NCBI GenBank assembly: GCA_030220185.1
Contig: JASPKZ010010203.1
Location: 1 to 64,000, forward strand
DNA length: 64,000 nt
Direction: 5' to 3'
DNA from: Diploptera punctata
Lineage: Eukaryota; Arthropoda; Insecta; Blattodea; Blaberidae
The translations under genes were made by a program, and so were the position numbers. Position 1 is the first letter of the stretch. Each line of letters begins with the position of its first letter. Under the pieces are notes generated by a model, which saw nothing but the letters and a program-made list of their open reading frames with translations, was not told the origin of the DNA and did no database searches. Shown piece after piece: positions 5,044-45,300 of this stretch.

Positions 5044-5390
5044 ACATTTTCCTAAGAACTTTATTCTCAAATACGTGTAAGCTCATTTCCTCCCTTAAAG
5101 TAAGAGCCCATGTTTATATATAAAGTACAGAGTTTAGAGACTCGGGTTCAAATCCCGACTCAAGCATTCATTTTTCTTTTCATATCAAATTTGCCTTCAT
5201 TGCCAAATGTCAAAAATATAGTTATAACATCTAAATATACAAGCCTTACTGCTATAAAGTAAATATTCTCTTTAAAAATTTCTTAACTGTTATGTTGGCC
5301 ACTAGATGGTGTTGGAACGAATTCCCACTACCTCTTGTGTGAATTGAGAATACTACATATATAAGAAAAATGTATGTTTGTGTTGGAATT

Positions 5391-5462
5391 CTTGAGTAGC
5401 TCAGTTGGTTAGAGCACTAAACGTACAGAGTTTAGAGAATCGGGTTCAAATCCCGACTCAAG
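5391..5462 (+). tRNA. tRNA-like sequence, array unit 1
   Basis: The 72-nt sequence folds as a tRNA: a perfect 7-bp acceptor stem (CTTGAGT with ACTCAAG), a D arm GCTC-AGTTGGTTA-GAGC, and a T arm CGGGTTCAAATCCCG. The anticodon arm is odd: the 5-bp stem CTAAA/TTTAG closes a 9-nt loop, or a 6-bp stem closes the 7-nt loop GTACAGA. CCA is not encoded. I regard it as a tRNA-derived module of a repeat, not as a working tRNA. Confidence 0.5.
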
Positions 5463-5688
5463 CATTCATTTTTCTTTTCATATCAAATTTGCCTCCATTG
5501 CCAAATGTCAAAAATATAGTTATAACATCTAAATATACAAGCCTTACTGCTATAAAGTAAATATTCTCTTTAAAAATTTCTTAACTGTTATGTTGGCCAC
5601 TAGATGGTGTTGGAACGAATTCCCACTACCTCTTGTGTGAATTGAGAATACTACATATATAAGAAAAATGTATGTTTGTGTTGGAATT

Positions 5689-5760
5689 CTTGAGTAGCTC
5701 AGTTGGTTAGAGCACTAAACGTACAGAGTTTAGAGAATCGGGTTCAAATCCCGACTCAAG
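5689..5760 (+). tRNA. tRNA-like sequence, array unit 2
   Basis: It appears identical to the unit 1 tRNA-like sequence, including the unusual anticodon loop. Identity at this level across units points to recent amplification or homogenisation. Confidence 0.5.
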
Positions 5761-5986
5761 CATTCATTTTTCTTTTCATATCAAATTTGCCTTCATTGCC
5801 AAATGTCAAAAATATAGTTATAACATCTAAATATACAAGCCTTACTGCTATAAAGTAAATATTCTCTTTAAAAATTTCTTAACTGTTATGTTGGCCACTA
5901 GATGGTGTTGGAACGAATTCCCACTACCTCTTGTGTGAATTGAGAATACTACATATATAAGAAAAATGTATGTTTGTGTTGGAATT

Positions 5987-6058
5987 CTTGAGTAGCTCAG
6001 TTGGTTAGAGCACTAAACGTACAGAGTTTAGAGAATCGGGTTCAAATCCCGACTCAAG
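5987..6058 (+). tRNA. tRNA-like sequence, array unit 3
   Basis: It has the same acceptor, D and T arms as units 1 and 2. The following spacer differs by a single A deletion in the CAAAAATATAG stretch. Confidence 0.5.
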
Positions 6059-6283
6059 CATTCATTTTTCTTTTCATATCAAATTTGCCTTCATTGCCAA
6101 ATGTCAAAATATAGTTATAACATCTAAATATACAAGCCTTACTGCTATAAAGTAAATATTCTCTTTAAAAATTTCTTAACTGTTATGTTGGCCACTAGAT
6201 GGTGTTGGAACGAATTCCCACTACCTCTTGTGTGAATTGAGAATACTACATATATAAGAAAAATGTATGTTTGTGTTGGAATT

Positions 6284-6354
6284 CTTGGGTAGCTCAGTTG
6301 GTTAGAGCACTAAAGTACAGAGTTTAGAGACTCGGGTTCAAATCCCGACTCAAG
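6284..6354 (+). tRNA. tRNA-like sequence, array unit 4 (variant)
   Basis: One base shorter than the others. It has CTTGGGT instead of CTTGAGT in the acceptor strand, giving a G-T wobble, and lacks the C after CTAAA, giving an 8-nt anticodon loop. It matches the variant seen in the partial first unit. Confidence 0.45.
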
Positions 6355-6367
6355 CATTCATTTTTCT

Positions 6368-6432
6368 TTTCATATCATATATATATATATTTATTTGTAC
6401 GTTACAATTAAACGTTTAACATTGATAAATGC

Positions 6433-27879: not shown

Positions 27880-30800
27880 CCATGGTATCTTTACCTTGTC
27901 GTGGTGGAGTGGCTTGCGTGCTTAAATGATCCTGAGAGCTATGCCGGCGGTAGCATTGCTGCCGATAGGGTTACCCATGGCCGGACTGGTCGAAGGTGAT
28001 AAGCCAGACGAAAAAAGTACCTTGGGCGAAAGAGTGACGATCTTTCACCGTAAAAATACAACCGTCAAGAAATGCGGACATGGGTTCATCTGGGGTAAAA
28101 TTTTCCGGAGGTCAAATAGTCCCCCATTCGGTTCTCCGGGCGGGGACTACTTCAGGGAACCCATGCCAAAGGCTCAAACACAGGGACATGTTCCTAGGAA
28201 CATGGAATGTTAGGACTTTATACAATAGTGGGGCACTAGAGATATTAACGCGGGAACTAGATAAATCGCCCTTAGATATAGTCGCTTTACAGGAAATTAG
28301 GTGGCCAGGAGAAGGTAGTCAGGAATCAGGAACCTTTGCATTATTATTTCTATGGGGGTGCAGAAAGACCTGCATTTGGAACGGGTTTTTTAGTCAGAAG
28401 GAGGATCCTATCCGCTATACGAGATATTAAGTTTGTTAATGATAGGATATCATACATAATTCTAAAGGGTAAACGACATGATTTTATAATTGTAAATGTA
28501 CATGCCCCCACAGAAGATAAAGATGACAAGATCAAGGATGAGTTCTATGAAGAATTAGAATGCTTATTTGATAGCCTTTCACGATATCATATGAAAATTG
28601 TCATAGGAGATTTTAATGCAAAAGTGGGGCGGGAAGATATATTCAAACCAACAATAGGCAAATTCAGTCTTCATGAAGATAGTAACGACAACGGGGTTAG
28701 ATTAGTCACATTTGCCACATCGAAGAATCTGATTGTTAAGAGCACAACATTTCAGCATAAGGATATTCATAAATACACCTGGACGTCCCCAGATGGAGAA
28801 ACTCGGAACCAGATAGATCATGTATTAGTGGATAAACGCTGGCACAGTAGCATCATTGATATTAGATCAGTTAGAGGGATAGACTGCAATTCGGATCATC
28901 ATCTGGTCAGAGTGAAAATCAGACAACGGCTATCGCTTATGAGAGGAACGAATGCTAAAGATGATTCTGTAAAATATGAATTAAAAAACTTGAAAAATGA
29001 TGAAATGCGGCAAGAATACCAAATCAAAATTGCTAATAGATTTGAAGTACTGGAATCTTCAGATGACAATGTGGCAAACGAAGAAGAACCTGATATAAAT
29101 AAAGAATGGGAGGCTATAAGAGATACTATTAAATTGTCAGCATCAGAAAGCATTGGTTGTTTAAAAAAGAGGCAAAACAAGAAATGGTTTGACGAGGAAT
29201 GTGCCGACATTGTAAAGAAAAGAAAGCTAGCAAAAATGAAATTGTTACACGAGCCAAATGAGGTAAATTTAGAGCAATTGGGTAGTATTAGACGGGAAAC
29301 CACTAAGTTACTAAAGAGTAAAAAGAGGGAATATTTGAGAGAGAAGATTAATGATCTTGAGATGAATGCAAAAAATAGGAACATTAGAGAATTATATCAG
29401 GGAATTAGTATAGAGAAGAAAGGGTTTCAGGCTAGAACAAACATAATTCGAAATGAAAATGGGGATATGATTGCAGATTCTTGGAGTATATTAAATAGAT
29501 GGAAAAGTTACTTTAATCAGCTATTAAATGTACATACAGAACAGGACATTGAGGAGGTTAAGTTACAGACAGCAGAAATGCTAGTCGCAGAGCCAAGTGC
29601 ATTAGAGGTTGAAATGGCGATTGAAAAATTGAAGATGTATAAAGCATCAGGTTCAGATGAGATCCCAGCAGAACTCATAAAATCAGGAGGAGAAAAATTG
29701 ATAGACAAAATACGCTGGTTGCTTAGTATGATTTGGGAAAAAGAAGCTCTTCCAGATGAATGGAAGGAATCAATTATCGTACCAATTTATAAGAAAGGAG
29801 ATAAAACTGATTGCAACAACTACAGGGGCATCTCATTACTTTCAACTTCATACAAAATTCTTACAAATATATTAGTAAGCAGACTTACTCCCTACATTGA
29901 TGACATTCTAGGAGATCATCAATGTGCATTTAGAAGAAACAGGTCTACAACAGATCAGATTTTTAGTATAAGACAGATTTTAGAAAAGAAATGGGAATAG
30001 AATGGCACTGTACATCAACTATATGTAGACTTCAAAAAAGCGTATGATTCAATTAAGAGGGAGAAGTTATATAGTATCCTGCTGGAGTTCGGAATTCCTA
30101 AAAAGTTAGTTAGACTTATACGAATGTGTCTAAATGGCTCAAATAGTAGGGTACGTGTAGGCAAACAGTTTTCAGACACTTTTGAAATCCAGAAAGGGTT
30201 GAAGCAAGGAGATGCACTATCTCCTCTACTATTTAATTTTGTACTAGAGCATGCCATTAAATCTTTAGAGAATGAGGAAGGCTTACAACTGAATGGTATT
30301 AATAAGCTGTTAGTTTATGCTGATGATGTAGTACTATTGGCCGATAGCGAGGAGATACTAAAGGCCAACACGCACAGACTATTGAGTAACACTAAGAAAT
30401 TAGGACTGGAAGTAAATATCAGTAAAACTAAATATATGGTCACAGGTAGAAATTCAGTGTATAATGGAAATGGACAGCTAATGACAAATGAGGGAAATTT
30501 TGAGGAAGTGGCTGAATTCAAATACCTAGGAACAATAATCACAAATAGGAATGAGACGCACAAAGAAATTAAACATAGGCTCAATTCTGGAAATGCATGC
30601 TATTATGCATTGCAGAGACTTTTGATGTCCCAACTCCTTTCAAAAAACGTTAAGCTGAAAATATATAAAACTATTATTCTACCAGTTATATTATATGGGT
30701 GCGAAACATGGACTCTTACTTTAAGGGAGGAAAGGAGATTACGAGTATTTGAGAATAAAAGTTCTTAGGAAAATTTTTGGACCAAAGAGAGATGAACAGA

Positions 30801-33615: not shown

Positions 33616-33710
33616 ATATATATTTATATATATATAATAAAATAAGTTAAAATATACCCCTTCTTAGATAAGATCCGTCGTCCTCAACTTATAAAATTTG
33701 TATTCTTTAT

Positions 33711-33752
33711 ACCTGTAAGCTTTTCAGAACATCCGTTCCATCATCAGCAGGT
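33711..33752 (-). ncRNA. Hammerhead-ribozyme-like motif, left arm
   Basis: On the minus strand the order is ACCTG, CTGATGA, a 15-nt segment TGGAACGGATGTTCT, GAAA, AGCTTA, CAGGT. ACCTG pairs with CAGGT as stem I (5 bp), GGAAC with GTTCT or GTTC as stem II, and AAGCTT forms a minimal stem III. One extra U follows the CUGAUGA core compared with the standard motif. Self-cleavage is not shown. Confidence 0.45.
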
Positions 33753-33874
33753 CTTTGTTCGCTACAATATCTAGTATGATGGTAGATGCTGCTGGTCGTA
33801 ACGTGGTGTTGTCGTGACTCCACGTTACGACCAGCAGCATATACCATCATACTAGATACTGTAGCGAACAAAGA

Positions 33875-33914
33875 CCTGCTGATGATGAAACGGATGTTCT
33901 GAAAAGCTTACAGG
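33875..33914 (+). ncRNA. Hammerhead-ribozyme-like motif, right arm
   Basis: This is the plus-strand counterpart of the left-arm motif: CCTG, CTGATGA, TGAAACGGATGTTCT, GAAA, AGCTTA, CAGG. Stem I is 4 bp here. Stem II is one mismatch weaker than in the left arm (GAAAC against GTTC). All conserved core bases of CUGANGA and GAAA are present. Confidence 0.4.
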
Positions 33915-34097
33915 CATAAAGAATACAAATTTTATAAGTTGAGGACGACAGATCTTATCTAAGAAGGTATATTTTAAGTTATTTTGTTTTATGACTCTCT
34001 ACCTCAACGGTTTTAATAATGAATGTTATTAGTATTGAATATATATGTGTATATATATATATATATATATAAATTACTAGTACTATTATTATTATTG

Positions 34098-42395: not shown

Positions 42396-45300
42396 CATCA
42401 TCATCATCATCACTCCAAGGATTAGGCAATTGCCCGTTCCGACTTCATATTGCATCAGCCCAACGTCTTCTAGGTCTTCCAACATCACGCCTTCCTCTTG
42501 CTTGATAATTTCTGGCTAACAATGGATATCTCTCCTTGTTCATTCCATCCATGTGATCAATCCATTTCTGTCTGTAATTCGTGACTTTATCCAATAAAGG
42601 CTGTACTTTCAATTCTTCTCTTATATCCTCATTTCTTATTCTATCAAGTCTTGTACATCCTTTTACTTGTCTTAGGAACCGCATCTCTGCCGTCTGTATT
42701 CTATCCTTCTGTCTTTTCACTGGAGCCCAAGTTTCACATCCATACAATATTGTGGGAACCGCCATAACATTATACATTTTTATCTTGGTTTCTTTTCTAA
42801 TTTTATTTTTGAATGTTCTCTGTATTGTTCCACACACCGTCTGAAATTTATTTATTTTGGAGTCAATATCTCTTTCCACATTGTAGCCAACATCACAGCC
42901 CAAATATTTGAAACTAGACACCTGTTCTATACTTTGATTTTCTAAAATAATTTTGGTTCTCACTGGATCTCTTCCTCTAAAAGCCATGGTCTTCGTTTTC
43001 CTTACAGAAATTTTTAGATCGTATAATTTACATATTTCATTTAATGCATGCATTGATTTCTATAAGTCGTCTTCATTTTCTGTATTATGATTACATCGTC
43101 AGCAAATAAAAGATTATTTATGCACATTTTATTATCCATTCTTATTCCTGGATTTACTAAAACTTTCCATTTATTTAAAATATCGTCTATATATATATTA
43201 AACAAAGTGGGTGATAAACTACATCCTTGTCGTAATCCAGTATTTGTTTTGATTGCATCTGTTCTTTTGAATCCGGTATCTATAATTATATTTGTGTCTT
43301 CATATAATGTCTTTATTGTTTCAACAAGGCACAGCGGGTATCCTTTCATTCGTAAAATTTCCCATAATTTTTGTCTGTTTACTCGATCGAAGGCCTTATC
43401 CAAATCTATAAATCCTATGTGAGTTTCTAAGTTATGTTCTCTTCTCTTTTCTATGAGTTGTTTCAGTGTAAAGACATGTCTATACATGACCTTCCCTTTC
43501 TGAATCCACTTTGATTTCACTATTATTACTTCTGTTATGTTTCTCAATCTATTATTTATTATTTTCGTATATATTTTGTAGCCAGTATTCATTAAGCTAA
43601 TCCCTCTGTAATTCTCGCAATTTCTCCGGTCTCCTCTTTTGAATATATTCTTGACAATTGCTGTTTTCCAAGTGGTTGGAATCCCATAGGTCTGCCAACA
43701 TATATTAATTAGATGAAGTATTCGTAGTTTACACAATATTCCACTATATTTGATTAATTCCATATTTATATTATCTAATCCTGTTGCTTTCCTATTCTTA
43801 GTGGTTTTCAAAGCCATTTCTAATTCATTTATGTCTATTACATCAATATTTTCCACTTTTATTTCTTCCTCATTGTTCTCTTTTCCTTCAATTTCCTCCC
43901 TTTTCCAAAGTTTTTCATAATGCTGGATCCATTCTTGTTCTGGGATTATATTCAATCTGGCAGAATCTTTCTCAGTCTGATTTAGATGTTTCACTAATTT
44001 ATAACCTATTTCTTGTCTTCCATACATATCATGTTCTACTGAGCTTATAAATTTATCCCATGACTCCTGATGGGATTTTCTTATAATGCTTTTAGCAATT
44101 CTCCTTTTCATTTTATATTCTTCATAGGATTCTTCTGTTTCAGTCGTAAGTATGTATGATATGCTTTTTGTTTTTCATTCACTGCATTTTGTATATTCGC
44201 ATTCCAAGTTCTCAAGCCCTTCCTATTCCTTATTCTATTTTTCTTTCCTAATATCTCATTTGCTGTTTTATGTATTACATTTGATATATTTTCCCATTCA
44301 ATATTTATATCTTCTGACGTCGCTATCTCTGATATATATTTATTCATTCTGCTTTCATAATGTTGTCTATACTTTGATCTTGTAATAAATATATTTTATA
44401 TACTTCTTCTTGGTTTCTTTGTTCTTATGTTTTTTTTTCCTTCCGCCATTTAGCTATTATGTTTATTTTGCTTATCACGAGATAGTGATCAGAGTATATA
44501 TCGCTGCCTCTATGTAACTCTCACATCTTTTACCAAGGCTCCTAGCTTGTTGTTTACGATTAAATAGTCAATTATTGATCTTGAGTTATATCCACTTCTT
44601 GTATATTTATGTATGTCCTTTTTTCGGAAATAGGTATTCATTATTTTTAATTGATTATAGGCTGAAAACTGTCTCAAATCCTGTCCATTATCATTTATTG
44701 TTATTCTTCTCCATTATTTCCTATTACATTAGGTATAGGGACATTGCCTACTCTGGCATTTAAGTCTCCACTTATTATTAAATGATGATCTTTTGTATAT
44801 TTATCAACTAATGTTTGTAATGTTTTATAAAATTTTTTTGTTTCTTCTTTCTTTGCCTTCCTCTGGGGCATACACAGCAATTATCATCATATATCCTCTT
44901 TCAATTTTAAATCTGGCTATCAGGATCCTTTCATTTATAAACTCATAGCTATTCAATTTGTTCTTCCATTTTTCATCTATTAAAATTGCTACTCCACACT
45001 GCGCTCTTGTTGTCTGTTCTACTCCGCTATACAACATAGTATAGTGTTGTAAGTCCTTTGTTCCTTTTAGTTTCTTTTTTGTTTCTGGTATTGTTGCTAT
45101 ATTTATTTTCTTTTTTCTTTAATTCTCTTTCTAATTCTTCTTCTTTTGTATTTATTCCCCTTACGTTCCAATTCCTAATTTCAAAATGTCCTTTATTCCA
45201 AATCGTATCCTTTTATCTTGCTTGGGTCGGTTCCTTTTATGACAATCCGGCTGATTTCCATGAAGCTTCTCAGTAAGATAAATGTCTCCTGGAAGCGTTA

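Follow-up and report, generated by a model that had tools for sequence, protein, structure and literature searches.

Mirror-image foldbacks with hammerhead-like motifs in the genome of Diploptera punctata are probably short insertions of a Penelope-like element

The DNA analyzed here, referred to below as the window, is a stretch of 64,000 nucleotides of the Diploptera punctata assembly GCA_030220185.1 (contig JASPKZ010010203.1, positions 1 to 64,000). An inverted-repeat search of the window retrieved two arms, 33651-33809 and 33817-33975, which were 94% complementary and separated by a 7 nt spacer, as well as an outer repeat pair at 33632-33658 and 33966-33992. The initial annotation had described a foldback at 33638..33988, that is, a two-arm element of ~350 bp. 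The inverted repeat is real and its arms stand head to head, but the insertion extends from ~33634 to 34038 and is asymmetric, with a 46-bp tail on one side that fell outside the coordinates first reported. The parts of the foldback are listed in Table 1. Because the left arm abuts an AT repeat, its outer edge carries an uncertainty of 1-2 nt, and because the insertion sits in this AT repeat, a target duplication was unreadable for the window copy. The tail of the window copy is a few bases off the family tail 40-mer used below. Two further loci, L009 and L010, have the flanks of the window copy at 97-99.7% identity. Low-scoring Rfam matches in the window (MIR837, mir-633, and similar) were all below their gathering scores, and were attributed to the long hairpin.

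Table 1. Parts of the foldback insertion in the window (PLE, Penelope-like element).
Feature	Position	Strand	Description
Left arm	33634..33819	-	PLE leader/pLTR copied in antisense, ~184 nt, reaching from the tail start site (outer end) to where the PLE stop codon lies (inner end)
Intact hammerhead-like motif	33711..33752	-	Stem I ACCTG/CAGGT, CTGATGA, extra T, stem II GGAAC/GTTCT, GAAA, palindrome AAGCTT
Head-to-head junction	33816..33822	.	3-nt overlap ACT (BLAST)
Right arm	33820..33992	+	Sense copy of the same leader, ~174 nt, inner end 10 nt shorter
Damaged hammerhead-like motif, sense arm	33874..33914	+	Stem II broken (GAAAC)
One-sided 46-bp tail	33993..34038	+	Closes the insertion

As the initial annotation had noticed, each arm carries a hammerhead-like motif on its own strand. 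It had also stated that 15 nt within the motif can form stem II in both arms. This was true of the minus-strand copy but not of the plus-strand copy, which has an A where stem II requires a G. In energy folding, the hammerhead shape of the minus motif, with stems I and II of 5 bp each, was no more than 0.2 kcal/mol above the best fold; the best folds of the plus motif were other shapes. When folding energies were compared with those of shuffled sequences, the minus motif showed a weak separation (z -1.1 to -1.6) and the plus motif none (z 0.2-0.4). For the minus motif, helix III was predicted to form between two molecules via the AAGCTT palindrome. By hammerhead rules, cleavage would presumably fall between 33716 and 33715 in the minus motif and between 33910 and 33911 in the plus motif. 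A relaxed hammerhead descriptor gave two matches in the window, the minus-strand motif being one of them, as compared with a mean of 0.05 matches per 64 kb and a maximum of 2 in 200 first-order Markov simulations. This descriptor was drawn up after the motif was seen, and it is weak evidence alone; the hammerhead case is carried by the family and its PLE context. The second match, at 43102 on the minus strand of the window, has a loop III of 12 nt.

The initial annotation had called for covariance models to be run. The Rfam hammerhead models had no match on the window at E ≤10, yet the same search also missed the motifs of seven PLE loci of this genome, and its silence on the window is therefore uninformative. 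The exact motif had no match in viral contigs, and phage records gave short weak matches only, with E at least 0.5 among the matches listed. Judged by their sequence, the window motifs look like PLE-type hammerheads with a minimal stem III, the minus copy being intact and the plus copy damaged, with cleavage as a prediction.

A linked PLE, predicted by the initial annotation, was found: the arms continue into the 3' end of a GIY-YIG endonuclease, a domain that stands at the end of the element in Penelope. In six copies (L092, L097, L128, L131, L136, and L140), the arms run on into the endonuclease end ...EIDNKLLINESTPRLNNPLYDIVRKKL or a variant of it. Several tail-selected copies contain coding sequence beyond the usual arm end that terminates in ...NNPLYDIVRKKL, followed by the stop codon where unmutated, and in L140 the endonuclease, leader, hammerhead, and tail all lie in a single piece. 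The longest endonuclease stretch (L128:2-469, minus strand) is a GIY-YIG fragment. Its peptide reached 19.5 bits against the Pfam GIY-YIG model (E 0.0012), which is below the cut-off of 22.6, and matched 30 of 30 sampled GIY-YIG loci of this genome in tblastn (E ≤1e-3). Searching the fragment against solved structures and NCBIfam returned nothing useful. Among the 30 matched loci is L062, a sister locus with a GIY-YIG frame of 37.5 bits, in which two open stretches adjoin each other on the same strand and, according to Pfam, encode RVT_1 first and GIY-YIG after it; the GIY-YIG is followed by a decayed motif with GACA in place of GAAA. Another locus, L075, combines RT-like frames, a GIY-YIG match, and an undamaged motif, all on the same strand; RVT_1 was confirmed there solely on a second, minus-strand copy.

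The same architecture was seen at other GIY-YIG loci, which, together with the endonuclease linkage, bears out the earlier reading of the window motifs as Penelope-type hammerheads. With a descriptor that included the extra T and a stem II of at least 3 bp, a motif was found within 450 nt at 13 of the 30 GIY-YIG matches. It lay on the endonuclease strand in 11 of these loci; in L049 it was on the opposite strand, and L076 represents a second foldback family. Stem I at the 13 loci measured 0-5 bp, mostly 3, with 0-1 bp in four, and by eye a palindrome (CTGCAG, TCGCGA, or ACATGT) replaces helix III in 10 of them. The extra U after the core had been raised as a caveat. In this genome it is usual: a T follows CTGANGA in all 16 motifs that were found, without requiring the T, within 450 nt of a GIY-YIG match. 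An extra nucleotide at an equivalent place has reportedly been described for a viroid hammerhead. Both the 31-copy alignment described below and the minus strand of the window present CUGANGA, GAAA, a UH cut site, and stems I and II in the order of a type I hammerhead. As for the second foldback family, it was seen in L076 (~1275-2050) and L059 (near 19), has hammerhead-like motifs with ACATGT replacing helix III, and in L076 bears the motif in both arms.

Other copies in the genome were looked for, as the initial annotation had proposed, in the assembly to which the window belongs (10165 contigs, 3.12 Gb in total), and a large family came to light. The foldback search gave 80 matches, corresponding to 40 places, each on both strands. 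Allowing ≤1 mismatch, the hammerhead 41-mer occurred at 2264 places genome-wide (1121 + 1143), among which one foldback may count twice; the reversed control gave 0. For alignment, 9 of the 40 loci were removed for shared flanks, and L010 and the window were both kept, so that the 31 aligned copies stand for 30 independent insertions. The arms of their consensus are exactly complementary. Conservation of the core among other copies, on which the initial annotation had made its reading depend, was observed in the 31 aligned copies; as these had been picked by similarity, it is no proof of selection. The commonest changes in the motif fell at what we take to be the free position 7, loop II, and the loop of helix III.

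A further sample was drawn with the exact family-tail 40-mer, which occurs at 87 places in the genome (reversed control, 0), a foldback not being required for inclusion. We read 63 of these places; of the others, 4 belonged to the first set already and 20 were left out. Removal of 5 duplicates from the 63 left 58 distinct copies, 3 more of which overlapped the first set. Both arms were present in 43 of the 58, the right arm only in 11, and the left arm only in 4. For the analysis of junctions, 86 copies yielded 72 with both arms parsed and, after 6 with centres >60 nt were dropped, 66 parsed copies, namely, 31 similarity-selected and 35 tail-selected ones.

In all 31 aligned copies, the tail was on a single side. 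On that side 22-31 of 31 positions matched; elsewhere, the opposite strand offered 15-17 at best, which was taken as background; a second tail was found in none of the 31. In 57 of the 66 parsed copies, the left arm has its outer end ≤3 nt from the tail start. With A/T-only repeats excluded, exact flanking repeats of 9-15 bp, some of them containing a few letters of the element start, were observed in 20 of the 31 aligned copies, repeats of 6-7 bp in 5 further copies, and none was callable in 6. A one-sided tail combined with target duplications of ~8-15 bp is what is expected of Penelope. The perfect inverted repeat of the consensus and the high copy number would also suit a MITE or a foldback DNA transposon bearing hammerhead-like letters by chance, but such an element leaves the one-sided tail, the flanking repeats, and the varying centre described below out of account and is contradicted by the continuity with the PLE endonuclease gene. 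We thus hold this origin to be barely credible.

A retrozyme, which would have its hammerheads in direct tandem repeats, was considered too and rejected: 12 hammerhead pairs lay <1 kb apart among the 100 listed of the 2264 places, 11 of them head to head and 1 direct. Endonuclease pairs <2 kb apart numbered 7 among the 151 matches listed, all head to head. L141, known from both ends only, bears a tail with an inverted arm of 134 nt and, ~1.1 kb further on, an endonuclease match in sense orientation.

Arm lengths were measured from the tail start, with L140 as the reference. The 66 parsed copies had 57 distinct junctions, at which the arm ends either overlapped or were separated by an insert (-19 to +19 nt). 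Because its centre varies, the foldback is not a constant unit, and one of the two window motifs is damaged; the earlier idea of a defined 350-bp element with two ribozymes was therefore abandoned. Five junctions were found more than once: one was common to five copies, another to three, and each of the remaining three to a pair of copies, one such pair consisting of the window copy and its duplicate L010. The five-copy junction (152/152, 19-nt overlap) was shared by L086, L098, L116, L134, and L137, which lie at different sites. Given such recurrences, some foldbacks may have been inherited as units. A possibility was that this holds for the family at large, with one RNA running across both arms and gene conversion from arm to arm. 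The high copy number and the junctions shared by two to five copies are in line with it, and the arms of palindromes can undergo conversion. Still, it is hard to square with so many distinct junctions, with the fact that some arms extend into the endonuclease on one side only, and with the near absence of mirrored private variants reported below, so that we consider it improbable.

The left arm was the longer one in 38 of the 66 parsed copies and the right arm in 22; in the tail-selected subset, each was longer in 15 of 35. In 34 of the 66 copies, one arm, and never both, ended 181-184 nt from the tail, which corresponds to the stop codon. The size of this pile-up is biased by selection, as it comprised 26 of the 31 similarity-selected copies vs 8 of the 35 tail-selected ones. 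We infer that it marks the 5' end of the RNA, near the stop codon, at AGTCACGAC. Cleavage at the predicted hammerhead site would give an RNA end at CAGGCATAAAG and arms of 80 nt. Only 1 of 132 arms ended ≤2 nt from there, which suggests that the template is usually not RNA cut by the hammerhead.

If the arms of a copy shared a template, variants in one arm should recur in the other. For the mirror test, 85 of 89 copies were kept (the window copy and three others were dropped), and 51 of them were well aligned. Non-CpG variants present in at least 8 copies were mirrored in 116 of 140 carriers, when 44 would be expected if the arms were independent. The corresponding figures were 59 of 156 carriers (8.5 expected) for variants in 4-7 copies, 35 of 198 (2.8 expected) for those in 2-3 copies, and 15 of 30 (4.6 expected) for CpG variants in at least 8 copies. 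Private variants were mirrored in 2 of 115 cases. Nine diagnostic sites were compared as well: arms within a copy agreed in 373 of 392 comparisons, as against 58% for arms of different copies; 37 of the 51 copies agreed throughout, 9 differed at one site, and 5 at two. These five could derive from two RNAs. Concordance of the common variants within copies indicates that in most copies both arms derive from a single RNA, or else one arm derives from its partner, and the rarity of mirrored private variants makes conversion after insertion look rare. An earlier count on a MAFFT alignment that included the divergent centre (98/198 for variants in at least 6 copies, 8/109 for private ones) was superseded by the 51-copy test.

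One arm would derive from the other if the tail-side cDNA folded back at its 3' end and copied itself, the left arm then being a copy of the right. Concordant arms are what such self-priming predicts, and the 19-nt overlap class lies at an imperfect palindrome that occurs naturally in the leader. There is also a precedent, as the part of PMC3846280 that deals with inverted pLTRs of PLEs infers self-priming on an antisense template from palindromes at the inverted junctions. However, simple copying of this kind should have duplicated the tail too, and no aligned copy has two. Moreover, the tail-side arm, being made first, should be the longer, when the tail-less arm is in fact the longer one in more than half of the parsed copies (38/66). 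Hence, we regard self-priming as unlikely, though less so than inheritance of the foldback as a unit.

We regard a by-product of insertion as the best explanation of the inverted pair and infer twin priming on one RNA. Two-ended priming on a single RNA is favored because it would explain together the concordance, the presence of just one tail, the repeats at the flanks, the difference in arm length, and the variation of the centre, all of which, like the PLE linkage itself, were read directly in the copies. The hammerhead would sit within the leader (pLTR) of the PLE RNA, flanked by the endonuclease stop codon on one side and by the start sites of reverse transcription on the other. The PLE enzyme would cut both strands of the target with a stagger of ~9-15 bp, and each 3' end would prime reverse transcription on one shared leader RNA, from the inner start site at one end, giving no tail, and from the outer site at the other, giving the 46-bp tail. 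Both cDNAs would head toward the 5' end of the RNA and halt at different points. Joined head to head, they would present the leader and its hammerhead twice, in mirror image. Hammerhead cleavage may or may not happen, and would be unnecessary for this model. The model takes the absence of a tail at one end as given.

We put the probability that the foldback is a short insertion of a GIY-YIG PLE, which in this family is known from partial copies, at about 0.75, a figure that covers the whole of this explanation, two-ended priming on one leader RNA included. A bolder proposal, to which we would give slightly less than even odds, is that working from both ends is inherent in PLE insertion. A dimeric enzyme would cut both strands and prime both ends on one RNA, from the outer site and the inner site, respectively. 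As reverse transcription would start inside the leader in the two-ended reading, monomeric transcripts could yield nothing but leader-only mirror insertions. Foldbacks would then be a main output of the element and no rare accident, and the hammerhead would be carried along without setting the ends of the cDNA.

PLEs are known to have inverted pLTRs, tails, and minimal hammerheads, and a new family member with these features is expected. In the sections of PMC3846280 on the Pen families of Adineta vaga, these have an inverted pLTR at the 5' side, an optional 31-bp tail on one pLTR, target duplications of 8-10 bp in the described cases, and palindromes at the inverted junctions. The Diploptera family resembles them in all four respects. 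In contrast to Pen as described there, the sampled Diploptera insertions are mostly leader-only foldbacks without an ORF, and they form a high-copy family. A closer mechanistic parallel is provided by Poseidon of Anolis (PAc), a lizard PLE. According to the portion of PMC11167929 concerned with it, its protein cleaves and extends both strands, two RT start sites bound the tail, the hammerhead lies near the junction of pLTR and ORF, and hammerhead mutants still insert. The two-site layout of the tail and the extension of both strands would thus be shared, but PAc is a lizard element known from biochemistry, and that portion of the paper does not deal with inverted twins in the genome. Animal retrozymes, as presented in the relevant part of PMC7229834, are short non-autonomous repeats of ~170-400 nt with type I hammerheads, expressed from tandem repeats as circular RNA. 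The window family is likewise short and has a type I hammerhead, but consists mostly of head-to-head pairs instead of tandem ones. Helix III, whose place is taken by palindromes here, is absent from PLE hammerheads according to the pertinent passage of PMC6155905.

In the open-access literature searched, we found neither this family nor leader-only mirror insertions at such abundance, nor an argument from concordant variants that one RNA serves both ends. PLEs are a distinct class of retroelements whose insertion pathway is poorly known and whose frequent pLTR inversion is unexplained. The present genome offers many short and simple insertions in which each end of the reaction is readable by itself, and the concordant-variant test and the arm-end statistics make the insertion mechanism countable.

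A few other arrangements were encountered. At L104 (731-1308), four copies of the left arm stand in tandem, 136-146 bp apart, ahead of a usual right arm. Elsewhere in the window, a 298-bp unit is repeated in tandem in 4.2 copies (5121-6377); ARAGORN reported four tRNA-like stretches in this array, three as tRNA-Cys (anticodon aca) and one as undetermined. Finally, a LINE-like element of non-PLE type occupies positions 28336-30768 of the window, with two open frames that encode an endonuclease/exonuclease/phosphatase domain and RVT_1.
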